A DNA stretch of 64,000 nt, taken from positions 1,116,001-1,180,000 of the forward strand of contig NZ_CP041983.1 of the NCBI RefSeq assembly GCF_014522325.1, read 5' to 3'. Numbering within the stretch: the stretch's first letter is position 1; each line of letters starts with the position of its first letter. This document shows, piece by piece, positions 2,961-29,917 of this stretch. The DNA is from Lactobacillus sp. PV012. Lineage in GTDB: Bacteria > Bacillota > Bacilli > Lactobacillales > Lactobacillaceae. The translations under genes were made by a program, and so were the position numbers. The notes beneath the pieces were generated by a model that did no database searches, was not told where the DNA came from, and worked only from the letters and a program-made list of their open reading frames with translations.

Positions 2961-3802
2961 TTATGCGACCCCCAATACCAAATTCGATTAATAATTTTTT
3001 GATACCATTTAGGTTCTTCAGTTTTTTTAGCGGGAACAAGTTGGGCACGTAGATACTTCAAATATTCTTCTCTACTCATATCTAACATTAACTGACTATT
3101 ACGAGTAAGGGTAACTCCACCAGTTTCTTCAGAAACTACAATTGTGATTGCATCTGTTACTTCTGAGATACCTACCGCAGCTCGGTGGCGTGTGCCAAGT
3201 TTTTTAGGAATTGTTGTACTATCAGATAAAGGTAAATAGGCAGCTGCTACTGCAATCTTTCCATCTCTAATTACAACTGCTCCATCGTGTAAGGGTGTAT
3301 TAGGAATAAAAATATTAATTAGTAATTCTCCCGTAATATCAGCATCGAGTGGGATTCCTGTTTCAATATAATCTTCTAAACCTGTATGTTGTTGCAAAGT
3401 AATCAGAGCACCAATTCTTCTTTTTGACATATACTGAATTGCTTTATCCAATTCTTCAATCATTTTCTCTGAACTTTGTTTTTTATTTGCATTCGCCCCT
3501 CCAAAAATTGGCGACCTTCCTAAATGTTCAAGCCCACGTCGAATTTCTGGTTGAAAAATCACAATAATTCCAATCACTGACCAAGATAGAATTTGATCCA
3601 CAAAATAAGTTAAGGTATGCAGATTCAAAAATCCTGCCACTATTCGGACTAAAATAATTAAAGAAATTCCTTTGACTAATTGGAGAGCTTTTGTTCCTTT
3701 TACCAGCATAATTAAACGATAAATGATATACCAAACAATTAGAATATCAATAATATTCATTAAATTTTGCCAAGTAAAAATATTTCCAATATCAAACTTC
3801 AC
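2957..3802 (-). CDS. cdaA: Diadenylate cyclase CdaA (DisA_N family)
   Basis: Makes cyclic di-AMP from two ATP at the membrane; the nucleotide controls potassium and osmotic balance. Three N-terminal helices (about residues 10-85) precede the DAC domain, in which the catalytic DGA (LHDGAVVIRDG) and RHR (GTRHRAAVG) motifs are intact. The start is GTG at 3802 behind GAGGGG. Only 38 bases separate it from the potD stop and no terminator is visible there, so it may also be reached by pot transcripts. Confidence 0.96.
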   Translation of the reverse strand: MKFDIGNIFTWQNLMNIIDILIVWYIIYRLIMLVKGTKALQLVKGISLIILVRIVAGFLNLHTLTYFVDQILSWSVIGIIVIFQPEIRRGLEHLGRSPIFGGANANKKQSSEKMIEELDKAIQYMSKRRIGALITLQQHTGLEDYIETGIPLDADITGELLINIFIPNTPLHDGAVVIRDGKIAVAAAYLPLSDSTTIPKKLGTRHRAAVGISEVTDAITIVVSEETGGVTLTRNSQLMLDMSREEYLKYLRAQLVPAKKTEEPKWYQKIINRIWYWGSHK

Positions 3803-3840
3803 TTGATCCCCTCACTTTCTTTTTATATCTTACCGTATTA

Positions 3841-4914
3841 TTAACGAGCGTACATCTTAAATTCTAAAAATAAATCATTATATTCTTGAATCTTTTTCGG
3901 ACCTAAATCTTGATAAACTTGTAAATTTTTCATTGCTTGCATTGATGGATAAAATTGCTTATCATTTTTTATCGTCTTCGGTAATAATTTCTGCGCTGCT
4001 GTATTAGGAGTAGGATAGCCAATATATTCAGCATTTTGAGCCGCATTCTTAGGATTTAACATAAAATTAATAAATTTTTGTGCTCCCGTGACGTTTTTAG
4101 CAGTTTTAGGAATCACAAAATTATCAAACCAAAGATTCGAACCTTCTGGTGGAACTACATAATGTAAATGTTTATTTTCTTCTAGCATTGTTCTTGCTTC
4201 TCCCGACCAAGTTACTCCCACCGCCGCTTCATTCTGAATCATATACATTTTTAACTCATCAGAAATTATTGCCTTTACATTTGGGCCTAATCCATCAAGC
4301 TTAGCCTTAGCTAATTTTAACTTTAAAGAATTAGTGGTATTCATCGAATTTCCCATTGAAGCTAAAGATAACCCCATGATATCGCGTGCTGAGTCTACTA
4401 ATAAAATATTATGACGATAATCTTTTTTCCAAAGATCATCCCAGTGTTTAATAGCACCCTTTTTTACATATTTATCATTGTAAACAATTCCTAAAGTTCC
4501 CCAAAAATAAGGAATTGAATATTCATTATGAGGATCAAAAGAATGGCCTAAGAATTCATGTCCAATATACTTAAAATTAGGTATTTTTTTAGTATCAATT
4601 TTATCAAGCAAGTTTGCTTTACGTAATTTTGCAATCATATAATCAGAAGGTACTGCAACATCATAAGAAGTCCCACCCTGCTTTAGTTTTGTGTACATTG
4701 CTTCATTTGAATCAAATGTTTCATAGGTTACATGATAACCTGTTTCCTTTTCAAATTTTTTAATTAATTTTGGATCAATGTAATCTCCCCAATTGTAAAT
4801 GATAAGATTCTTACTATTTTTTGTAACACCTACTTCATTTAACCGATGGACTACAAATTCTAGTCCTAAACAAAGGACTAAAATACTACAAATCCCAATA
4901 ATTAACTTCTTCAC
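3841..4914 (-). CDS. potD: Spermidine/putrescine ABC transporter substrate-binding protein PotD
   Basis: Extracellular polyamine-binding component of PotABCD. An N-terminal hydrophobic segment (about residues 4-20) is followed by a periplasmic-binding-protein fold starting NLIIYNWGDYIDPKLIKKFE, typical of PotD. The cysteine in LVLC could be a lipid site, but the residue before it is Leu rather than Gly/Ala/Ser, so the lipobox is poor and the helix may be an uncleaved anchor. The start is GTG at 4914, overlapping potC by four bases. It is the last gene of the pot operon. Confidence 0.93.
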   Translation of the reverse strand: MKKLIIGICSILVLCLGLEFVVHRLNEVGVTKNSKNLIIYNWGDYIDPKLIKKFEKETGYHVTYETFDSNEAMYTKLKQGGTSYDVAVPSDYMIAKLRKANLLDKIDTKKIPNFKYIGHEFLGHSFDPHNEYSIPYFWGTLGIVYNDKYVKKGAIKHWDDLWKKDYRHNILLVDSARDIMGLSLASMGNSMNTTNSLKLKLAKAKLDGLGPNVKAIISDELKMYMIQNEAAVGVTWSGEARTMLEENKHLHYVVPPEGSNLWFDNFVIPKTAKNVTGAQKFINFMLNPKNAAQNAEYIGYPTPNTAAQKLLPKTIKNDKQFYPSMQAMKNLQVYQDLGPKKIQEYNDLFLEFKMYAR

Positions 4915-22145: not shown

Positions 22146-22159
22146 AGTATTGCTTTTTT

Positions 22160-22231
22160 GACTCCTTAGTGTAATGGATAGCACGTAAGATTCCGGTTCT
22201 TAAAATCTGAGTTCGACTCTCAGGGGAGTCA
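22160..22231 (+). tRNA. tRNA-Arg (anticodon CCG)
   Basis: A full cloverleaf can be folded: acceptor GACTCCT with GGGAGTC, D arm GTGT/GCAC, anticodon stem TAAGA/TCTTA around loop TTCCGGT (anticodon CCG), and T arm CTGAG/CTCAG with loop TTCGACT. No CCA is encoded. It reads the CGG codon, which should be rare in an AT-rich genome. It is a single gene with its own promoter and terminator. Confidence 0.95.
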
Positions 22232-22235
22232 TTCT

Positions 22236-22263: not shown

Positions 22264-22293
22264 TACAAAAAAATCGGACATCCAGTCCGATTT
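22264..22293 (-). terminator. Terminator of the downstream secreted-protein gene
   Basis: Nine-base perfect stem AAATCGGAC/GTCCGATTT (22271-22293) with a T tail on the minus strand, just after the stop at 22299. Confidence 0.88.
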
Positions 22294-22298
22294 CTTTA

Positions 22299-23777
22299 TT
22301 ATTTAATTGAACCGCTTAAAATTTCAGAACGTTGAGCCATTTGGACATATAATTTACTGCCACTTACTGATATTCCCTCAATTTCACGATTTGTATTAAA
22401 GCTACTCTTTCCTAAATATTCTCCATCTTCTTTTACTTTAAAAATATGATCGTTATATGCAATATAGAATCTCTTCTTATTTGCATCATAAGTAAAACCT
22501 TGGACAGGACTTCCATTTACGAAATCAGATTGTGTTGCCCCAACTTCTACTGGAGTCCAAGTATCACCAACTCTAGTCACTTTCCAATACTCATAGCGAT
22601 GATAGCCTCCATTATGGAAAAGTGCGTACATTGTATGATCGTTTACCATCACCGCATTGTGAATGTACCGTTTTCCAGAAGCTGAGCCATTCCAGATTTT
22701 AAAGCTCCAAATCTTTTCAATTTGCATATCACTTTTTCTAATTTGCAAAATCTCTTCCGAATTTTCTGAATTAGATTGTTTATTATCATTAGCTATTACA
22801 TAAATATAATTTGCAGTTGATCCTAAAGATTGAGCATGACCTAAACGAATATAAGGACTTACTTTAATATTAGCAGCTAATTTTTTAAAACTTCCTAAAC
22901 TTAAACTAGTTAATTTTTGAGTATTAAATTTACTCATTTCATTATTTTTATAAGCCACTAAATGACCCCTTTGATCACTTGAGTCAGCTAACATGGAAAC
23001 CGTAGACCACCCATTAGAAACTGTCAGTCCTTCTGGAATAGGACCTACTTGGGTAAGCCAACTGCCACGTAAACTTAAAGTTGAAGGCTCGAAAAACAAT
23101 GTACTTAGTTTGGTGCCATTATTATTTAATTTTGTTGCTTTTGTAGCAATATTAAAATTACTCCTATGCCCTGACTTAATCGAAATTGCCTTAGGACCTG
23201 CCTTAGGCACTATATTTGCAGAGCTTATGCCTTCTTCCCTATCATTACGCACTACCACATTTACACTAGCATGAGCCTTGCCATAAGTATAGTTTACTTG
23301 CGTGTTTCCTGCTTTTGCAGAGGAAATCACTCTGGCAGAAGTATGGACCTTAGTTGGATTTATCACTGTTCCATGACTATCTGTCACATAATTAATCGCA
23401 TCTATAGTATCAAACTTTCCGTACTCATTCTTTACTAAACTAACAGATTTAGCTACCGAAATTTTATTTCTTACGAAGAATTTTTCATTTACCCAGCCTA
23501 CAGTATGGCCATCTACATAAACATACCAATACCTACCTGAACGGGTCTTCTTAGACGTGTTTGATTGATAGTGGCCCACCTTAAATTGACTAGTTGAAGC
23601 CACTTTATGAGATACACCTTTTGCATTAATCTTACTATAAATACCATAATTCTTTGTCCCAGGTTGCTTAGTTACAAGACTCTGTGCCTGAGTTAACTGG
23701 CTTGTTTTAGCTAAACCAATACTTCCTATCCCTAGTATTACAGCAGAAGTTAAAAATAATTTAGATAATTTTTTCAT
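22299..23777 (-). CDS. Secreted GW/SH3-module protein, paralogue A
   Basis: A 492-aa exported protein of unknown function. It has a signal peptide (residues 1-32, KKLSKLF then a hydrophobic core, cleavage near TQAQ), a GW/SH3-like module about 33-102 ending YVDGHTVGWVNEKFF, and an Ig-like domain about 103-180 (SSAKAGNTQVNYTYG). A beta-rich C-terminal domain about 190-492 has repeated YIYVIANDN, TMYALFHN and RFYIAYND motifs, possibly a propeller. There is no LPXTG motif or transmembrane tail, so retention would be non-covalent; GW modules in Listeria bind lipoteichoic acid. ATG 23777 follows AGGGAG. It lies 30 bases after the GT2 gene and is clearly related to the protein at 27148-29136. Confidence 0.85.
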   Translation of the reverse strand: MKKLSKLFLTSAVILGIGSIGLAKTSQLTQAQSLVTKQPGTKNYGIYSKINAKGVSHKVASTSQFKVGHYQSNTSKKTRSGRYWYVYVDGHTVGWVNEKFFVRNKISVAKSVSLVKNEYGKFDTIDAINYVTDSHGTVINPTKVHTSARVISSAKAGNTQVNYTYGKAHASVNVVVRNDREEGISSANIVPKAGPKAISIKSGHRSNFNIATKATKLNNNGTKLSTLFFEPSTLSLRGSWLTQVGPIPEGLTVSNGWSTVSMLADSSDQRGHLVAYKNNEMSKFNTQKLTSLSLGSFKKLAANIKVSPYIRLGHAQSLGSTANYIYVIANDNKQSNSENSEEILQIRKSDMQIEKIWSFKIWNGSASGKRYIHNAVMVNDHTMYALFHNGGYHRYEYWKVTRVGDTWTPVEVGATQSDFVNGSPVQGFTYDANKKRFYIAYNDHIFKVKEDGEYLGKSSFNTNREIEGISVSGSKLYVQMAQRSEILSGSIK

Positions 23778-23807
23778 TTTATTTCTCCCTAAAAATAACA
23801 CTTCGCT

Positions 23808-24767
23808 CTATTTTACCACATCTCTATTATCATTACTTTTTTCCTTAACAATATAAATTGGTCTTTTCTTTACCTGTAAAAATATCTTTCCAATATATTT
23901 TCCAATTATTCCTAAACATAGTAATTGAATACCCCCGATTAACAAAATAATTGAAACTAATGACGCCCAACCAAATACAGAGGTACTAGGTTCAATAATT
24001 TTTCTTATTATTATAATAATCATCGCAATTACTGCTAATATAAAAGATCCTAGTCCTAGCCAAACTGCTAAATTTAGCGGCATCTCTGAAAAATCTGATA
24101 TTCCATCAAACGCATATTTAAATAATTTCCAAGTACTCCAATCACTAGTACCAGCTACTCGTTCCCGATTATGATAATCTAGATATTTTGTTTTAAAACC
24201 TACCCAACTAAAAATCCCCTTAGAAAAGCGATTATATTCTTGCATTGATAAAACAGCATCAACCATCTGTCTAGTCATCATCCTATAATCTCGTGCTCCT
24301 GGAACAATTTTAGTGTCTGAAACATGATTAATAAACTTATAGAATTGGTTACTAAAGAAGGACTTTATTTTAGCCTCACCTGTTCGATCAACGCGTCGAG
24401 TTCCTACACAATCATACTCTCCAGTCTGAAGTAACTTATACATTTCTGGTAAAAATTCAGGTGGGTCTTGTAAATCTACATCCATTACAACCACGTAATT
24501 ACCATCACTTGCTTCTAATCCAGCGTATAAAGCTGCTTCTTTACCAAAATTTCGCGAAAAAGATAAATAATGAACATGCTCTGGATTTTTTTGATAAAGT
24601 TTACGCAGTTGTTCCAAGGTTTGATCCCTTGATCCATCATTTATAAAGTAGTAATCTACCCAAACTTCTTTCATCTTATTTAACACAACATTTTGCACAG
24701 CTGTATAAAATAAAGGGATACTCTCTTCTTCGTTATAGCAAGGAACTATAATGGATAATTTTTTCAT
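23808..24767 (-). CDS. GtrB/CsbB-like polyprenyl-phosphate glycosyltransferase
   Basis: GT2 (DPM1-type) enzyme expected to load a sugar onto undecaprenyl phosphate on the inner face of the membrane. The nucleotide-sugar start LSIIVPCYNEEESI, the DXD-type VVMDVDLQDPPEF near residue 97, and the family segment FSRNFGKEAALYAGL are present. Two C-terminal transmembrane helices lie about 230-300. The length of 319 aa is typical of CsbB/GtrB. It overlaps the membrane-protein gene upstream by four bases. With the GtrA-like gene it forms a three-component glycosylation cassette; the sugar is unknown. Confidence 0.9.
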   Translation of the reverse strand: MKKLSIIVPCYNEEESIPLFYTAVQNVVLNKMKEVWVDYYFINDGSRDQTLEQLRKLYQKNPEHVHYLSFSRNFGKEAALYAGLEASDGNYVVVMDVDLQDPPEFLPEMYKLLQTGEYDCVGTRRVDRTGEAKIKSFFSNQFYKFINHVSDTKIVPGARDYRMMTRQMVDAVLSMQEYNRFSKGIFSWVGFKTKYLDYHNRERVAGTSDWSTWKLFKYAFDGISDFSEMPLNLAVWLGLGSFILAVIAMIIIIIRKIIEPSTSVFGWASLVSIILLIGGIQLLCLGIIGKYIGKIFLQVKKRPIYIVKEKSNDNRDVVK

Positions 24768-26647
24768 TCTTTTTTAGCCTCTTTAAATTTTCTAATTACG
24801 CTCTCAATCCCATAAATTATTAATCCTAACCAACTTATTATACTAATCCCAAATAAAATTTTAAAACTTGTTGGCCAAATAAACTTTAAAATGGCTGTAT
24901 TATATCCTTTTTTTTGAAAGATAGTAGGACTCTTAATTAAGCTATAGTGTAATGGCGTCACCTTTTTATTATTTACAACTAATTGAGATTGCTTATACAT
25001 TACAATTGGAAGCTGACGTTGTCCTTCCTTTTTACCAATCCATTGAATCTTTAAGGCTCCATCTTTTAACGGCGTTTTTTTGAATTTATCTTCTTGATCG
25101 ATTACTTCTTTTTCAAAAGCATAATTTACTTGATGATAACTTATCTTAGAATTCTTCACTGGTAAATAATCTGGATTGACTTTAATAACTAAATTAAATA
25201 AATTTTCTTTTCTCTTTTTAGTAAAAACTGCTTGTTTTAAACTCCAAAAGTCATTGGTATTACGATAAAAGAAACTGTCTGATGTAAAACTCTTAATATA
25301 ATGATAGCCTTTAGGATAATATTTCATTCCATAAGCCTCTGAATCAGAATTTACACCTTGTAAATACTTAATATATTTTCTTTGAGCGTATTCACTGGTT
25401 GTCGTATAGTATTTTTTACTTACTATTTTGTAAAGTGGAGTATAATTGTTATTTGCTGCTTGCCACAAGCGATTATAACTTAAATTACAGCTTTCCACCA
25501 ATACAATTGCTATACAACCTAACACTCCATAATAAAGTGGTTGTTTTTCTTTCCAATTTATCTGGCTTACTGATATTCCTATTCCTAAAATCAATAGTAT
25601 ATCTGCTATTAATAAAAAGCGAAAAGGAAATTGCAAATAACTTCTTAAAATTGGAAATATCCTTTGGATTAACTGCCAAGGAAATAAGCTACTACTTATA
25701 TACAGGAAAAAAACTCCTGTTAAGGTAACTACATCATTTAAAATTGATTTTTTCCAATTAAATAAAACATAAAGTAATTGCACCAAAAAAATTATAACCA
25801 CTCCAACCAAGATGGCATCGCGAATATTTTCAGATGTACTCACTTCTACCATATTACTTACAAGATTATGAGTTCTAATGGTTGCTAATTTATTTTTAAC
25901 AGAGACAGTTAATAGGGCTCCCCAAACATTAGCAGTTAAGCAAATTGTCCCAACTATAGCCTTAGTTAAATTTAAAATCATCTGCTTTTTTTGGGGAGTA
26001 AGAATGAATCCAGTAATTGCAAATGGAATTAAAGCAAGTGTTACCATCAAAGAAGAAAGCAAATGAGTCTGCAGAAGAGCCGTCATTCCGAGCATTAGCC
26101 CAATCCAGTGAATTGGCCTTTTTTTATCTCGAATCATATTAACTGCTTCAATAAAAACAAATGGTGCAATTGCACTTCCCCACCCAGATAAATTAGTATG
26201 ATCAAACCATGTTTGCAATGGACTTATATTAATGTATAAAAGTGCTAAAATTAAGCTCCAAAGTTTATTAGCCCCTACTTTTTTAACTAAAATATACATT
26301 CCACTACCACCAAGAAGGCAGATTAAAAAGTAGGATACAATTTGAAATCTAAACCATGTGCCGGTTATTAAGACAAGCAACCCCATTATATAAGCAAATA
26401 AAGGGCCGTAAAATGCATTAATAATTCTTCCACTTTGACTAAAGCCATAATTCATTTGAAAATAGCTATAGTTTCCTGTCCGTATCTGTTTGCTAATATC
26501 ATAAAACCGATTGTAGTGAAACCAGGTATCAATATTTAACACAAAACCTCTAGTATTTAATTGACCTTGAATCATTAAATATGTGGCAATAATTATAACC
26601 AAATAAGGCCAATCATCTTGGAACTTCTCCTTTAATTTTTCCTTCAT
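24764..26647 (-). CDS. Large polytopic membrane protein, GT-C / PTPS-related (YfhO-like role)
   Basis: A 627-aa membrane protein with about ten to twelve hydrophobic helices in residues 12-405, a soluble stretch of about 190 residues, and a last helix at 600-618. The segment NIDTWFHYNRFYD after helix one holds an acidic residue in the first extracytoplasmic loop, as in GT-C glycosyltransferases. It resembles lactobacillar proteins annotated as 6-pyruvoyl-tetrahydropterin synthase-related membrane proteins, a name that says little about function. By position it should be the transferase that moves the lipid-linked sugar onto its acceptor. It overlaps the GT2 gene, so translation is coupled. 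Confidence 0.72.
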   Translation of the reverse strand: MKEKLKEKFQDDWPYLVIIIATYLMIQGQLNTRGFVLNIDTWFHYNRFYDISKQIRTGNYSYFQMNYGFSQSGRIINAFYGPLFAYIMGLLVLITGTWFRFQIVSYFLICLLGGSGMYILVKKVGANKLWSLILALLYINISPLQTWFDHTNLSGWGSAIAPFVFIEAVNMIRDKKRPIHWIGLMLGMTALLQTHLLSSLMVTLALIPFAITGFILTPQKKQMILNLTKAIVGTICLTANVWGALLTVSVKNKLATIRTHNLVSNMVEVSTSENIRDAILVGVVIIFLVQLLYVLFNWKKSILNDVVTLTGVFFLYISSSLFPWQLIQRIFPILRSYLQFPFRFLLIADILLILGIGISVSQINWKEKQPLYYGVLGCIAIVLVESCNLSYNRLWQAANNNYTPLYKIVSKKYYTTTSEYAQRKYIKYLQGVNSDSEAYGMKYYPKGYHYIKSFTSDSFFYRNTNDFWSLKQAVFTKKRKENLFNLVIKVNPDYLPVKNSKISYHQVNYAFEKEVIDQEDKFKKTPLKDGALKIQWIGKKEGQRQLPIVMYKQSQLVVNNKKVTPLHYSLIKSPTIFQKKGYNTAILKFIWPTSFKILFGISIISWLGLIIYGIESVIRKFKEAKKE

Positions 26648-26662
26648 TTCATCCTCAATTCA

Positions 26663-27070
26663 TTATTTCTTGAAAGTAATCAATTTATTTACAATAAATT
26701 GAATAAGGGTAGCAACTAAAGTTGCAATAATTTTTACTATCATTTGATTTTGATGAAGCTGATTTACAAAAATAAATAAACACCCTGTAGTAAACAAAGT
26801 AGTTATCTGTCCAATTAAATAATACTCTATAAATCTTCTCAGTAAATGATTATGCACTTTAAAGTTAGCATAACTATTCCAAAAAAAGTTATTAATTAAT
26901 CCACAAGTTGAAGAAATAAAATTTGCAACTTCGGGATTCCAATGCAAAAAAATTGTTAAAATAGAAAAAATTCCAAAATCGACTACTAATCCTAATACTC
27001 CAATTAAGCCATACTTTATTAATTGGATAAATGCTTCTTGATGAATAATTTCACCTAACTTATTTTCCAT
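26663..27070 (-). CDS. GtrA/GtcA-family membrane protein (putative flippase)
   Basis: A 135-aa protein with four transmembrane helices and the GtrA signature region LIKYGLIGVLGLVVDFGIF, FFWNSYANFK and FIVNKLITFKK. Family members are thought to flip undecaprenyl-linked sugars, or help present them, for wall polysaccharide or teichoic acid glycosylation. It is first in the cassette, 15 bases before the GT-C-like gene. Only 77 bases, including a terminator, separate it from the upstream secreted-protein gene. Confidence 0.9.
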   Translation of the reverse strand: MENKLGEIIHQEAFIQLIKYGLIGVLGLVVDFGIFSILTIFLHWNPEVANFISSTCGLINNFFWNSYANFKVHNHLLRRFIEYYLIGQITTLFTTGCLFIFVNQLHQNQMIVKIIATLVATLIQFIVNKLITFKK

Positions 27071-27100
27071 CTTTCACCTAAATAATTTTAATTCATAAGC

Positions 27101-27132
27101 AAAAAGAAGATTCAAAATAGAATCTTCTTTTT
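27101..27132 (-). terminator. Terminator of the upstream secreted-protein gene
   Basis: Thirteen-base perfect stem (27101-27113 with 27120-27132), A-rich and T-rich at its ends, between the stop at 27148 and the GtrA-like gene. Confidence 0.88.
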
Positions 27133-27147
27133 GAATACATTTTTATC

Positions 27148-29136
27148 TTAATCAGTTAATTCTGAACTTTCGAGTAATTCAGGACGTTGTGCCAAATTGA
27201 CATAAAGACGATTATTAGAAATTGAGATTCCTTCAATTTCACGACCCGTTTCAAAAGTATACGCTTCTTTATAAGTGCCATCTTGACCAACTTTAACAAT
27301 TAAATCATTGAAGGCAATATAGAAGTTTTTGTGCTTACTGTCATAAGCAAATCCTTGTACTGGTGCATTTCCACTTACAAAATTTCCACCGGTAGCTCCG
27401 ACCTCTGTTGGATACCAATTAGAACCTGTTCGTTTAAACATCCAGTACTCATAAGTCTTATCTTTAGTATTGTGGTAGAGAGCATACATAGTATTGTCAT
27501 CTACAATAACTGCATTGTGGAAGTAACGTGGATTGCTGCTATCTCCAACCCAAGCCTTAAACGTCCAAATCTTATTAACTGTTAAATCACTCTTATTGAT
27601 TTGGAGTAAAGTTTCTGAGTCAGCAGGATTGTAGCGGCCATGTTCGTTAGCTACAACATAAATATACTTGTCACTTGCTCCCATTCCTTGTCCATGTCCA
27701 GTATAAATATACGGACTAACTTTCATATTTTTAACATAGTTTGTAAAACTCTTAGCAGTTAAACTTGAAAGATTTTGACTAGCATATGGATCCTTTAAAG
27801 CATTTAAATTATAAGCCACAATATGACCAGAAGTTGAGTTACTGTGTGCAAGCAAACTAGTATAGAGCCAACCCTCACTCATTACCATTCCTTCTGGAAT
27901 ATGGCCCACTGCGTTAACTTGTGGAGTATTTATATCTGGTTGTTGATTTAAATATAATGGTTGATAAAACTTAGTTGTAAAAGTTAAACCATTAGTTTTA
28001 TAAGTATGACTGGTACTTTCTGGAGCATAAGTTGTATAATCTACATAATTTTCTGAGTGACCATAGTGCGTGCGCCAACTCTTTAAGTTATTAGTACCTG
28101 GTTTTACTTCAGCATTAGCTTCAGCAATACCTTCTTTATCACTTTTTCTAATTTTGAAAGTTACTGTAGCTTTTGCTTTTTTACCAACGCTATAGGTAAC
28201 CTTTTTAGTACCAGCCTTAGTAGTATCTACATTTTGAGTTGATACTTTAACATTCCAATTTCCTACAACATTTCCATACTCATCAGTCGCATAAGATAGT
28301 GCATATGGAGTATAAAAACTAGTATCTGGATTTTTGACTAAACTAACAACCTTAGGAACTTCAATCTTATTACGAGCAAAAAAGTTTTCATTTACCCAGC
28401 CAGTACGTACCCCATCAACATATATTAACCAGTAACGGTACTTAGTAGCTTGATAAACTTCTGTAGCTTCAATATGATTGTTAGCATAATCAATTCCGTT
28501 ACCAACTTTTTTACCTAATTTACCAGTATTACTAATTGATTTGTAAACATTGTAATTTTTACTACCAGCCTTTTTTACAACTGCTGCTTGAAAAGTAACA
28601 TGGCGATTAAATGTTGTGTCTTTAACTTCGTCTTGCTTACTTACAGTAGTTGTTTTTTTAGGGGTATTTTTAGATGATGTAGCAACCTTTTTTTGCTTTT
28701 TAGCAGCTTCAATAGCTTTATTAGCAGCTTTATTTTGTTTATCTAGTTTTGCTACCGCATTTTGAACAGATTTAAGGTTATTTGTATAAATATCTTCTTC
28801 GTCTTCATTAGTTAAATCTGTAGTTTCTTCATTATTAGCAGGATCAGTATCTTGAACTGCGCCTACTTTTTTATCAGAATTCGTTGTCTGATCTTGAGTA
28901 GCTTGAGAGGTACTTTCTGAATTATTTTGGCTAGTTTGAGATTCAGATTTTGTATTATCAGTTTGTGTTGGTTCTTTATCTTGGTTATTATCAGTTTGAG
29001 TTGTTGTAGTTTGGGACACTTGTGATGAAGATACACTATCAGCTTTTACTGGATTTGAAAGTAAAACCATACTTAAAGCAGCTGCTGATAAAAATGATCC
29101 TAATACCATTGTCCTTTGCTTTTTGATATACTTCAC
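27148..29136 (-). CDS. Secreted GW/SH3-module protein, paralogue B
   Basis: A 662-aa exported protein. The signal peptide is about 1-32 (KYIKKQR, hydrophobic core, cleavage near PVKA). A Ser/Thr/Gln/Asn/Glu-rich linker runs about 33-165, ending in a Lys-rich stretch with likely coiled-coil character. A GW/SH3-like module about 180-265 ends YVDGVRTGWVNENFF, followed by an Ig-like domain (TTKAGTKKVTYSVG) and the same beta-rich C-terminal domain as paralogue A (YIYVVANEHG, TMYALYHN, NFYIAFND, REIEGIS). There is no LPXTG. The start is GTG at 29136, six bases after AGGAAGG; a longer frame from 29157 would read through that site. Function is unknown. Confidence 0.85.
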   Translation of the reverse strand: MKYIKKQRTMVLGSFLSAAALSMVLLSNPVKADSVSSSQVSQTTTTQTDNNQDKEPTQTDNTKSESQTSQNNSESTSQATQDQTTNSDKKVGAVQDTDPANNEETTDLTNEDEEDIYTNNLKSVQNAVAKLDKQNKAANKAIEAAKKQKKVATSSKNTPKKTTTVSKQDEVKDTTFNRHVTFQAAVVKKAGSKNYNVYKSISNTGKLGKKVGNGIDYANNHIEATEVYQATKYRYWLIYVDGVRTGWVNENFFARNKIEVPKVVSLVKNPDTSFYTPYALSYATDEYGNVVGNWNVKVSTQNVDTTKAGTKKVTYSVGKKAKATVTFKIRKSDKEGIAEANAEVKPGTNNLKSWRTHYGHSENYVDYTTYAPESTSHTYKTNGLTFTTKFYQPLYLNQQPDINTPQVNAVGHIPEGMVMSEGWLYTSLLAHSNSTSGHIVAYNLNALKDPYASQNLSSLTAKSFTNYVKNMKVSPYIYTGHGQGMGASDKYIYVVANEHGRYNPADSETLLQINKSDLTVNKIWTFKAWVGDSSNPRYFHNAVIVDDNTMYALYHNTKDKTYEYWMFKRTGSNWYPTEVGATGGNFVSGNAPVQGFAYDSKHKNFYIAFNDLIVKVGQDGTYKEAYTFETGREIEGISISNNRLYVNLAQRPELLESSELTD

Positions 29137-29251
29137 AATTAACCTTCCTCTATACACTCTATCTTATTTCATTACAGCAAGTTTCTCTGTGTGATCTATG
29201 TTCTATTTTATCGTATTTAAAAAAATTTTAAAGTGTTTTGAAATTCTTTAT

Positions 29252-29280: not shown

Positions 29281-29306
29281 TAGCACTAAAAGCAGTAGAG
29301 TGCTAA
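29280..29306 (+). promoter_or_regulatory. CIRCE element (HrcA operator) upstream of clpP
   Basis: TTAGCACTA-N9-GAGTGCTAA matches the CIRCE consensus TTAGCACTC-N9-GAGTGCTAA with one mismatch in the left arm. It lies at the predicted transcription start of clpP. No CtsR heptad repeat is seen. Confidence 0.92.
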
Positions 29307-29332
29307 TTTTAATTTTAAGGAGGTTATGTTTA

Positions 29333-29917
29333 ATGCTTGTACCTACAGTTATTGAACAAACCGCACGTGGAGAACGTGCTTATGATATTTATTCACGACT
29401 TTTAAAAGACAGAATTATTATGCTTAGTGGTGAAATTAATGACCAAATGGCTAATTCTATCATTGCACAACTTTTATTCTTAGATGCGCAAGATAACACA
29501 AAAGATATTTCATTATACATTAACTCACCAGGTGGTGTAATTACTTCTGGTCTTGCAATTATGGATACTATGAATTTCATCAAATCAGATGTTTCAACCA
29601 TTGCAATCGGAATGGCTGCTTCAATGGCATCTATTCTTTTGACTGCTGGAACTAAGGGTAAACGTTTTGCTTTACCAAACTCCACAGTTTTAATTCACCA
29701 ACCATTAGGTGGTGCTCAAGGTCAACAAACTGATATCCAAATTGCTGCCGAAGAAATCTTAAAGAGTCGTAAGAAATTAAACCAAATTTTACATGAAACT
29801 ACTGGTCAACCTTTAGATAAAATTCTTAAGGATACCGAACGTGATAATTATCTTACTGCTGAAGAAGCAAAAGATTATGGTTTAATTGACGAAATTTTAG
29901 TAAACAAGAAAAACTAG
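29333..29917 (+). CDS. clpP: ATP-dependent Clp protease proteolytic subunit ClpP
   Basis: Self-compartmentalised serine protease that works with ClpX/ClpC-type ATPases in protein quality control. The catalytic serine is in [11 protein letters not shown] near residue 97, the histidine in [13 protein letters not shown] near 122, and the aspartate in the C-terminal DERDNYLT-like region. The length of 194 aa from ATG 29333, nine bases after AAGGAGG, matches the family; the longer frame from 29300 has no site. It is a single-gene unit controlled by CIRCE. Confidence 0.97.

Follow-up and report, generated by a model that had tools for sequence, protein, structure and literature searches.

Between clpP and cggR, Lactobacillus sp. 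PV012 carries five consecutive minus-strand genes in which two related, predicted exported proteins, here called paralogs A and B, flank a GtrA, GT-C and GtrB glycosylation cassette. This clpP–cggR interval was analyzed within a 64,000-nucleotide stretch of the genome, which we call the window. Our preferred explanation, to which we give a probability of roughly 60%, is that two independent gene sets share one variable interval. A and B would be wall proteins that do not need the cassette, and the cassette would glycosylate a wall polymer or glucan. The parts are of known kinds; their arrangement is local and unstable.

Distribution of A/B Genes and the Cassette

The main sample comprised 75 genomes. 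A/B genes were counted in 51 of them after weak fragments were dropped (52 otherwise, with G032 being lost), GtrB in 47 at a threshold of >300 bits (51 without it), and GT-C in 37 at >150 bits (39 without it). A/B occurred alone in 23 genomes, with GtrB in 9, and with both GtrB and GT-C in 19. The remaining genomes had GtrB and GT-C minus A/B (16), GtrB alone (3), GT-C alone (2), or none of the three (3). Thus 23/51 A/B-bearing Lactobacillus genomes had no GtrB above 300 bits. None of these 23 had a GT-C match, and none had YfhO, a lipoteichoic acid (LTA)-type transferase, above its cut-off (G042 holds a 16.9-bit fragment). A distant GtrB scoring 204–209 bits was found in three of them (G025, G030, and G053). 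Because these genomes have A/B with no window-type GtrB, GT-C, or YfhO, A and B appear to be independent of the cassette.

The 23 genomes are G006, G007, G017, G019, G025, G028, G030, G031, G033, G038, G042, G048–G055, G062, G064, G065, and G074. Those with a species or strain name include L. panisapium, L. xylocopicola, and ESL strains, which we take to be bee-associated.

Among the 60 more complete genomes of this sample, the combinations were A/B with GtrB in 25, A/B alone in 20, GtrB alone in 14, and neither in 1. The association between A/B and GtrB in this set is negative if there is one at all (Fisher p = 0.011, uncorrected for phylogeny). We also sampled 251 Lactobacillaceae genomes, of which 11 were Lactobacillus (taken by listing order) and 240 belonged to other genera. 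A/B genes were found in four, all Lactobacillus, and in 0/240 of the sampled genomes from other genera. GT-C relatives were present in 99/251, with 9 in Lactobacillus and 90/240 spread across 22 other genera. These counts come from an alignment search, used instead of the PF10131 profile at E 1e-6 (at least 28/251), which missed the PV012 genome. Since many of the sampled genomes of other genera have GT-C relatives and A/B was found in none of them, the GT-C family also appears to be independent of A/B.

A preliminary description of this DNA had proposed that the five genes form a linked surface system, with gene-order conservation across Lactobacillus as one way to check it. The linkage is not kept. 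The paralogs are widespread without the cassette, an outcome that the preliminary description itself had named as refuting its proposal, the B–cassette–A order occurs in only 4/38 loci (see below), and GT-C relatives occur without A/B in other genera. On these grounds, a conserved five-gene system was rejected.

Organization of the clpP–cggR Interval

Other parts of the preliminary description were borne out, namely the two related exported paralogs on either side of GtrA, GT-C, and GtrB, all on the minus strand. The list of open reading frames (ORFs) gives five genes in the minus-strand order B, GtrA, GT-C, GtrB, A, bounded by clpP (29300–29917, plus strand) and by a cggR-gap-pgk-tpi-eno run. 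The features are as follows.

22299..23777, minus strand: paralog A; signal-peptide-like start, GW/SH3 module, immunoglobulin-like (Ig-like) domain, predicted propeller; divergent LBA0864-like surface layer (S-layer) associated protein
23808..24767, minus strand: GtrB/PgfS-like GT2, putative polyprenyl-phosphate sugar synthase; profiles, with DGSRD and DVD motifs read in the sequence
24764..26647, minus strand: membrane glycosyltransferase of predicted GT-C fold; PF10131 and structure comparison
26663..27070, minus strand: GtrA-type flippase; PF04138
27100..27133, minus strand: terminator-like hairpin between B and GtrA; consensus scan (palindrome reported on the plus strand) and folding
27148..29136, minus strand: IgdA/LBA0695-like paralog B; start resembling a signal peptide, long linker rich in Ser/Thr, GW and Ig-like domains, and a C-terminal half with homology to A's propeller
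22271..22293, no strand assigned: inverted repeat resembling a terminator, lying between A and the tRNA gene; seen in the consensus scan alone, which gave it on the plus strand
22159..22232, plus strand: tRNA-Arg(ccg) between A and cggR

The ORF of A spans 22299–23801 from a GTG, and its likely start is the ATG at 23777, which has a ribosome-binding-like stretch ahead of it. From this ATG, the gap to GtrB is exactly the 30 bases that had been noted before. GtrB and GT-C overlap by 4 bases, and 15 bases separate GtrA from GT-C. The ORF of B spans 27148–29157 (669 amino acids) and has an in-frame GTG at 29136, in agreement with the end given in the preliminary description. The hairpin between B and GtrA has 14 pairs and a folding energy of −18.9 kcal/mol (z = −5.67), which 0/200 shuffled sequences equaled. 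Because it stands between B and GtrA, B is probably transcribed separately from the cassette, and GtrA, GT-C, GtrB, and A may form a single transcript, as predicted from their spacing on one strand. In the L. colini spacer between B and GtrA, a run of purines and, after it, a T-rich stretch can be seen by eye. The tRNA-Arg(ccg) gene occurs once per locus in 14/14 clpP-region loci scanned.

The interval was read in 60 loci (59 retrieved loci and the window); as controls without A/B, 8 loci of ten named were read. A B-type gene adjoins clpP in 49/60 loci. A lies on the cggR side, and a permease gene and fur often separate the two. Both genes are seen in 38 loci (in G015, A is in two pieces), and in four of these a cassette lies between them: the window, L. 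colini (with no GT-C), G025, and G030. GtrB follows A in six further loci (G015, G016, G020, G035, G037, and G043), five of which have GtrA there too. It also lies within the interval in two genomes that have B without A (G009 and G057) and in two that have neither (G041 and G056). In G002 it is beside cggR, as it is on a short contig of G069. GtrA, GT-C, and GtrB can also cluster away from A/B, for example in G003, G044, G039, and G027.

The G025 and G030 sets differ from that of the window. Between B and A, these genomes have an SlpA-domain protein, GtrA (73.3 bits), a 497-amino-acid membrane protein with no Pfam match, whose likeness to GT-C was judged by eye only, and a GT2 that is 39% identical to the window GtrB.

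G030 L113 6613–10115 and G025 L120 8189–11632: distantly related GtrA / GT-C-like / GtrB set

The three cassette proteins are 96.8–97.9% identical between G025 and G030, and since the two genomes are nearly identical at this locus, we count them as one event. In a tree of 44 of the 49 GtrB copies, the in-interval label requires 3 changes, as opposed to a mean of 12 when labels are shuffled, with many forks left open. The in-interval place therefore seems clustered and partly inherited.

The interval also holds other variable cargo. We saw ATP-binding cassette transporters, permeases, S-layer-like proteins, and transposase-like genes, classed mostly by eye, between B and A or cggR in L080, L085, L107, L116, and L118.

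Paralogs A and B

A and B are 44% identical across 476 aligned columns (E 3e-126). Both N-termini have a signal-peptide-like stretch, as read from the sequence by eye, which suggests that the proteins are secreted. The GW profile (PF13457, cut-off 21 bits) matches A at 30.3 bits and B slightly under the cut-off at 20.8; L. colini B scores 24.1. The GW module would hold both proteins non-covalently on the wall. Listeria Lmo1076, which we take to be a GW protein, is matched by the A-family profile across the GW part (E 4.8e-7). Matches to the Ig-like Big_3 domain are weak in the window (A 18.2 and B 20.6 bits, cut-off 21.2), whereas the same library gives 23.8–30.0 bits for six of eight relatives, and 25.7 for L. 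colini A.

In the structural model of A, a GW/SH3 module and an Ig-like domain accompany a C-terminal half predicted to be a propeller, with five blades by our own count. Invariant polar residues fall at or near the blade starts. The propeller motifs of A are retained in the C-terminal half of B, so that both proteins are predicted to display a propeller. Foldseek alone matched A loosely to propellers of many kinds, with query-length template modeling scores of at most 0.31 among the 50 matches listed. VIA-align re-ranked these matches; families absent from the structure listings are not thereby excluded. A single literature search found no published propeller assignment for proteins of the A/B type.

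We place A and B in or near two studied S-layer associated families on the strength of sequence comparisons, B with IgdA (LBA0695) and A, divergently, with LBA0864. These are surface-extracted L. acidophilus proteins of 550 and 497 amino acids, respectively (PMC3836491). Deletion of LBA0864 lowered adhesion and left the transcriptome nearly unchanged (PMC7425073), and deletion of igdA disturbed the cell surface (PMC7090030). GW modules have been described as surface anchors (PMC7425073). In the available parts of this literature, LBA0864 and IgdA are assigned no catalytic or binding domain besides GW and Ig-like. The preliminary description knew of no described function for the five-gene set; for A and B themselves, this has to be qualified by their likeness to these two families. 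The PV012 genome has 24 matches to the SlpA domain (PF03217), as would be expected of an S-layer former.

The NCBIfam model NF050071 for the LBA0864 family matches A near full length at 588.3 bits and B from residue 185 at 481.3 bits, both under the cut-off of 850. Window A thus shares the GW anchor and Ig-like domain of this family and scores well below the A proteins of L. colini (868) and strain LL6 (902), which exceed the cut-off; the A protein of ESL0684 scores 847. Scores of 467–544 bits were obtained for a second copy in LL6 (A′), for two B types, and for a 501-amino-acid protein of L. acidophilus. Like IgdA, B has GW and Ig-like Big_3 domains, the latter slightly under its cut-off, and B-type genes adjoin clpP. 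The B protein of G003, a genome that we infer to be L. acidophilus, is as long as LBA0695 (550 amino acids). Window B differs in its far longer, Ser/Thr-rich linker, and no glycosylation cassette is described at igdA in the available parts of the papers.

In a tree of 73 rows, from which 23 rows of 12 genomes had been removed as near-duplicates, most B-type proteins split from all A-type proteins with a support of 100/100. The B clade, with the same support, has 35 rows and includes 34 of the 37 B rows, among them those of G003 and of the window, together with other clpP-adjoining B genes. The three B rows on the A side are G001, G012, and G061. Window B and L. colini B are sisters. Window A is a divergent row on the A side without a resolved placement, and L. 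colini A is not its sister. Broken or partial A/B-type copies were seen in G013, G015, G060, and G011, which suggests that the family is undergoing gain and loss.

The Glycosylation Cassette

Profile matches support the earlier identification of the middle trio as a GtrA/GT-C/GtrB set. GtrA matches PF04138 at 80.1 bits (cut-off 26.1) and GtrB matches PF00535 at 103.4 bits. The GtrB sequence carries the two motifs that PMC7117936 names DXSXD and DXD. Its best NCBIfam match is PgfS at 328.7 bits, below the PgfS cut-off of 500. GT-C matches PF10131 at 30.5 bits (cut-off 26.4), the sole family listed at E ≤ 1. Its model has a GT-C fold, and Asp40 is invariant across 63 aligned rows. Fold neighbors include oligosaccharyltransferases and protein O-mannosyltransferases, and such matches do not tell the acceptor. 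A search of PDB sequences with the GT-C profile gave no match.

We considered and rejected the possibility that the cassette GT-C is a YfhO protein (PF09586), since it matches PF10131 only and YfhO sits elsewhere in the genome. PV012’s own YfhO has 858 amino acids (L137 6855–9431; genome match G000:C1:544917–547394) and is unlinked to the cassette. Across the 75 genomes, GtrB and YfhO are both present in 43 and both absent in 25; 4 have GtrB alone and 3 have YfhO alone. The GT-C family is found in 35/47 GtrB genomes.

The PV012 genome has a second GtrA gene (L136 6784–7332), about 2.4 kb from a UDP-glucose synthesis gene that is GalU-like by eye (3508–4413). There is no GtrB among the ORFs listed across L136 3508–10527.

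The middle genes look like an ordinary multi-component transmembrane glycosylation cassette, with all three component types present and their activity predicted. They share with CsbB-GtcA-YfhO and similar systems (PMC8035078) a GT2 polyprenyl-phosphate transferase, a GtrA flippase, and a GT-C transferase, but the window GT-C is of the PF10131 kind and the genome’s YfhO is unlinked. Another relative is the GtrA-GtrB pair of L. johnsonii (FI9785_241-242; PMC7117936), which, unlike the window pair, has no further glycosyltransferase beside it.

Genomes G014, G021, G024, G034, and G059 have a GtrB that is 72–73% identical to that of the window. Presumably, these are gasseri/johnsonii-type genomes. 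G014, G021, and G034 each have two PF10131-type GT-Cs and 2–3 genes of the YfhO type, at a distance from GtrAB. The wider group of G014, G021, G024, G034, G059, and G071 likewise has GtrAB apart from 2–3 PF10131-type GT-Cs and 2–3 YfhO-type genes. These GT-C and YfhO-type genes are candidates for the third part of the L. johnsonii glucan pathway. A ribosomal protein S14 motif, a marker of the L. johnsonii gtrAB neighborhood, had no match in seven loci.

Discussion

If two independent sets share the interval, GtrB would load a sugar, probably glucose or galactose, onto undecaprenyl phosphate, and GtrA would flip the lipid-linked sugar. GT-C would then transfer the sugar beyond the membrane, the acceptor most likely being a polymer of the cell wall or a surface glucan. 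The shared lipid-sugar probably feeds the genome’s unlinked YfhO for LTA as well. Besides the distributions above, this explanation has in its favor the hairpin that separates B from GtrA, the shared presence of GtrB and YfhO, and the requirement for GtrA and GtrB in making the L. johnsonii glucan EPS1 (PMC7117936).

Several observations weigh against this explanation. In 12 more genomes, GtrB of the window type is found in this interval, 10 with clpP on the contig and two (G002 and G069) on another contig beside cggR, and 11/30 GtrB copies of A/B genomes have an A/B gene no more than 15 kb away. Co-location appears to exceed what would be expected of wholly unrelated sets, though the place is partly inherited. 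At least two cassette arrivals between B and A look independent, one in the window and L. colini and the other in G025 and G030. GtrB and GT-C occur without YfhO in G044 and G046, both of them nearly complete genomes, and no sequence result identifies the acceptor. A cargo site would suffice to explain the arrivals themselves, since the interval takes several other kinds of genes. A more specific reading is that the B–A locus repeatedly acquires cassettes because the A/B propellers recognize, or are retained by, the glycan made by the local GT-C. A, which directly follows GtrB both in the window and in L. colini, would then partner a short GT-C enzyme by binding its acceptor or its product. 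Such partners have been speculated to exist in some systems (PMC8035078), and we regard this reading as improbable here.

It is also unlikely, in our view, that the cassette O-glycosylates its exported neighbors, chiefly the Ser/Thr-rich linker of B, in the manner of S. mutans Pgf on Cnm. There, cnm adjoins pgfS and Cnm is modified through it (PMC5856776). The likeness is real in that both systems have a PgfS-like GT2, a membrane transferase, and an adjoining exported protein, and the fold neighbors of GT-C include protein glycosyltransferases, though these are uninformative on the acceptor. The window cluster, however, has no second PgfM, its GtrB scores below the PgfS cut-off, and no PgfE epimerase was found among ORFs of at least 80 amino acids in 22299–29157 (ORF list read and five Pfam scans). 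The linkers were scored in 45 of 49 B proteins, with four GtrB-positive genomes (G057, G061, G001, and G012) left out because they lack the GW motif used; the linker start was fixed at residue 39, so some rows take in a bit of signal peptide. The two longest linkers, those of the window (156 residues, 42 Ser/Thr, the highest count scored) and L. colini (117, 30 Ser/Thr), do belong to loci with a cassette between B and A, yet the L. colini linker is long even though GT-C is missing between GtrA and GtrB there. Overall, linkers are longer in GtrB-negative genomes, and the median Ser/Thr count is 10.5 in 22 GtrB-positive versus 17 in 23 GtrB-negative genomes (Mann–Whitney p = 1.1e-4, uncorrected for phylogeny). 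The Ser/Thr fraction slightly favors GtrB-positive genomes (median 0.325 versus 0.28). We therefore rejected a Ser/Thr-rich linker as a general mark of GtrB-dependent glycosylation. On balance, the data speak against the B linker as a general target, and the suggestion that A and B are glycosylated by the cassette finds little support.

The preliminary description favored decoration of a teichoic-type polymer. One part of that idea is plausible, since GtrB presence follows YfhO and its product may thus have such a role. The fuller version, in which the whole cassette decorates LTA or wall teichoic acid and A and B bind the decorated polymer, would fit the anchoring role of GW modules and the match to Lmo1076. 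It seems improbable to us because the cassette GT-C is not the YfhO found elsewhere in the genome, and A/B cannot generally require such decoration when window-type GtrB and above-cut-off YfhO are both absent from 23/51 A/B genomes. Even less probable is that GT-C starts or elongates an EPS1-like surface alpha-glucan, its family supplying the third component that the GtrAB pathway of L. johnsonii lacks. In that species EPS1 cannot be made without GtrA and GtrB, and no other glycosyltransferase was found close to the two genes (PMC7117936). Most GtrB genomes do have this GT-C family, but 12/47 do not, and no result tells which GT-C serves EPS1.

Three points are worth keeping from this analysis: the predicted propeller in two studied S-layer associated families, the co-occurrence of GtrB, YfhO, and GT-C, and the repeated arrival of cassettes at this locus. 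The co-occurrence of GtrB, YfhO, and PF10131-type GT-C across the genus offers candidates for the transferase still missing from the glucan pathway of L. johnsonii. LBA0864 and IgdA influence adhesion and surface integrity of a probiotic Lactobacillus, and the predicted propeller, with its invariant polar residues, gives a concrete site to examine in both families.

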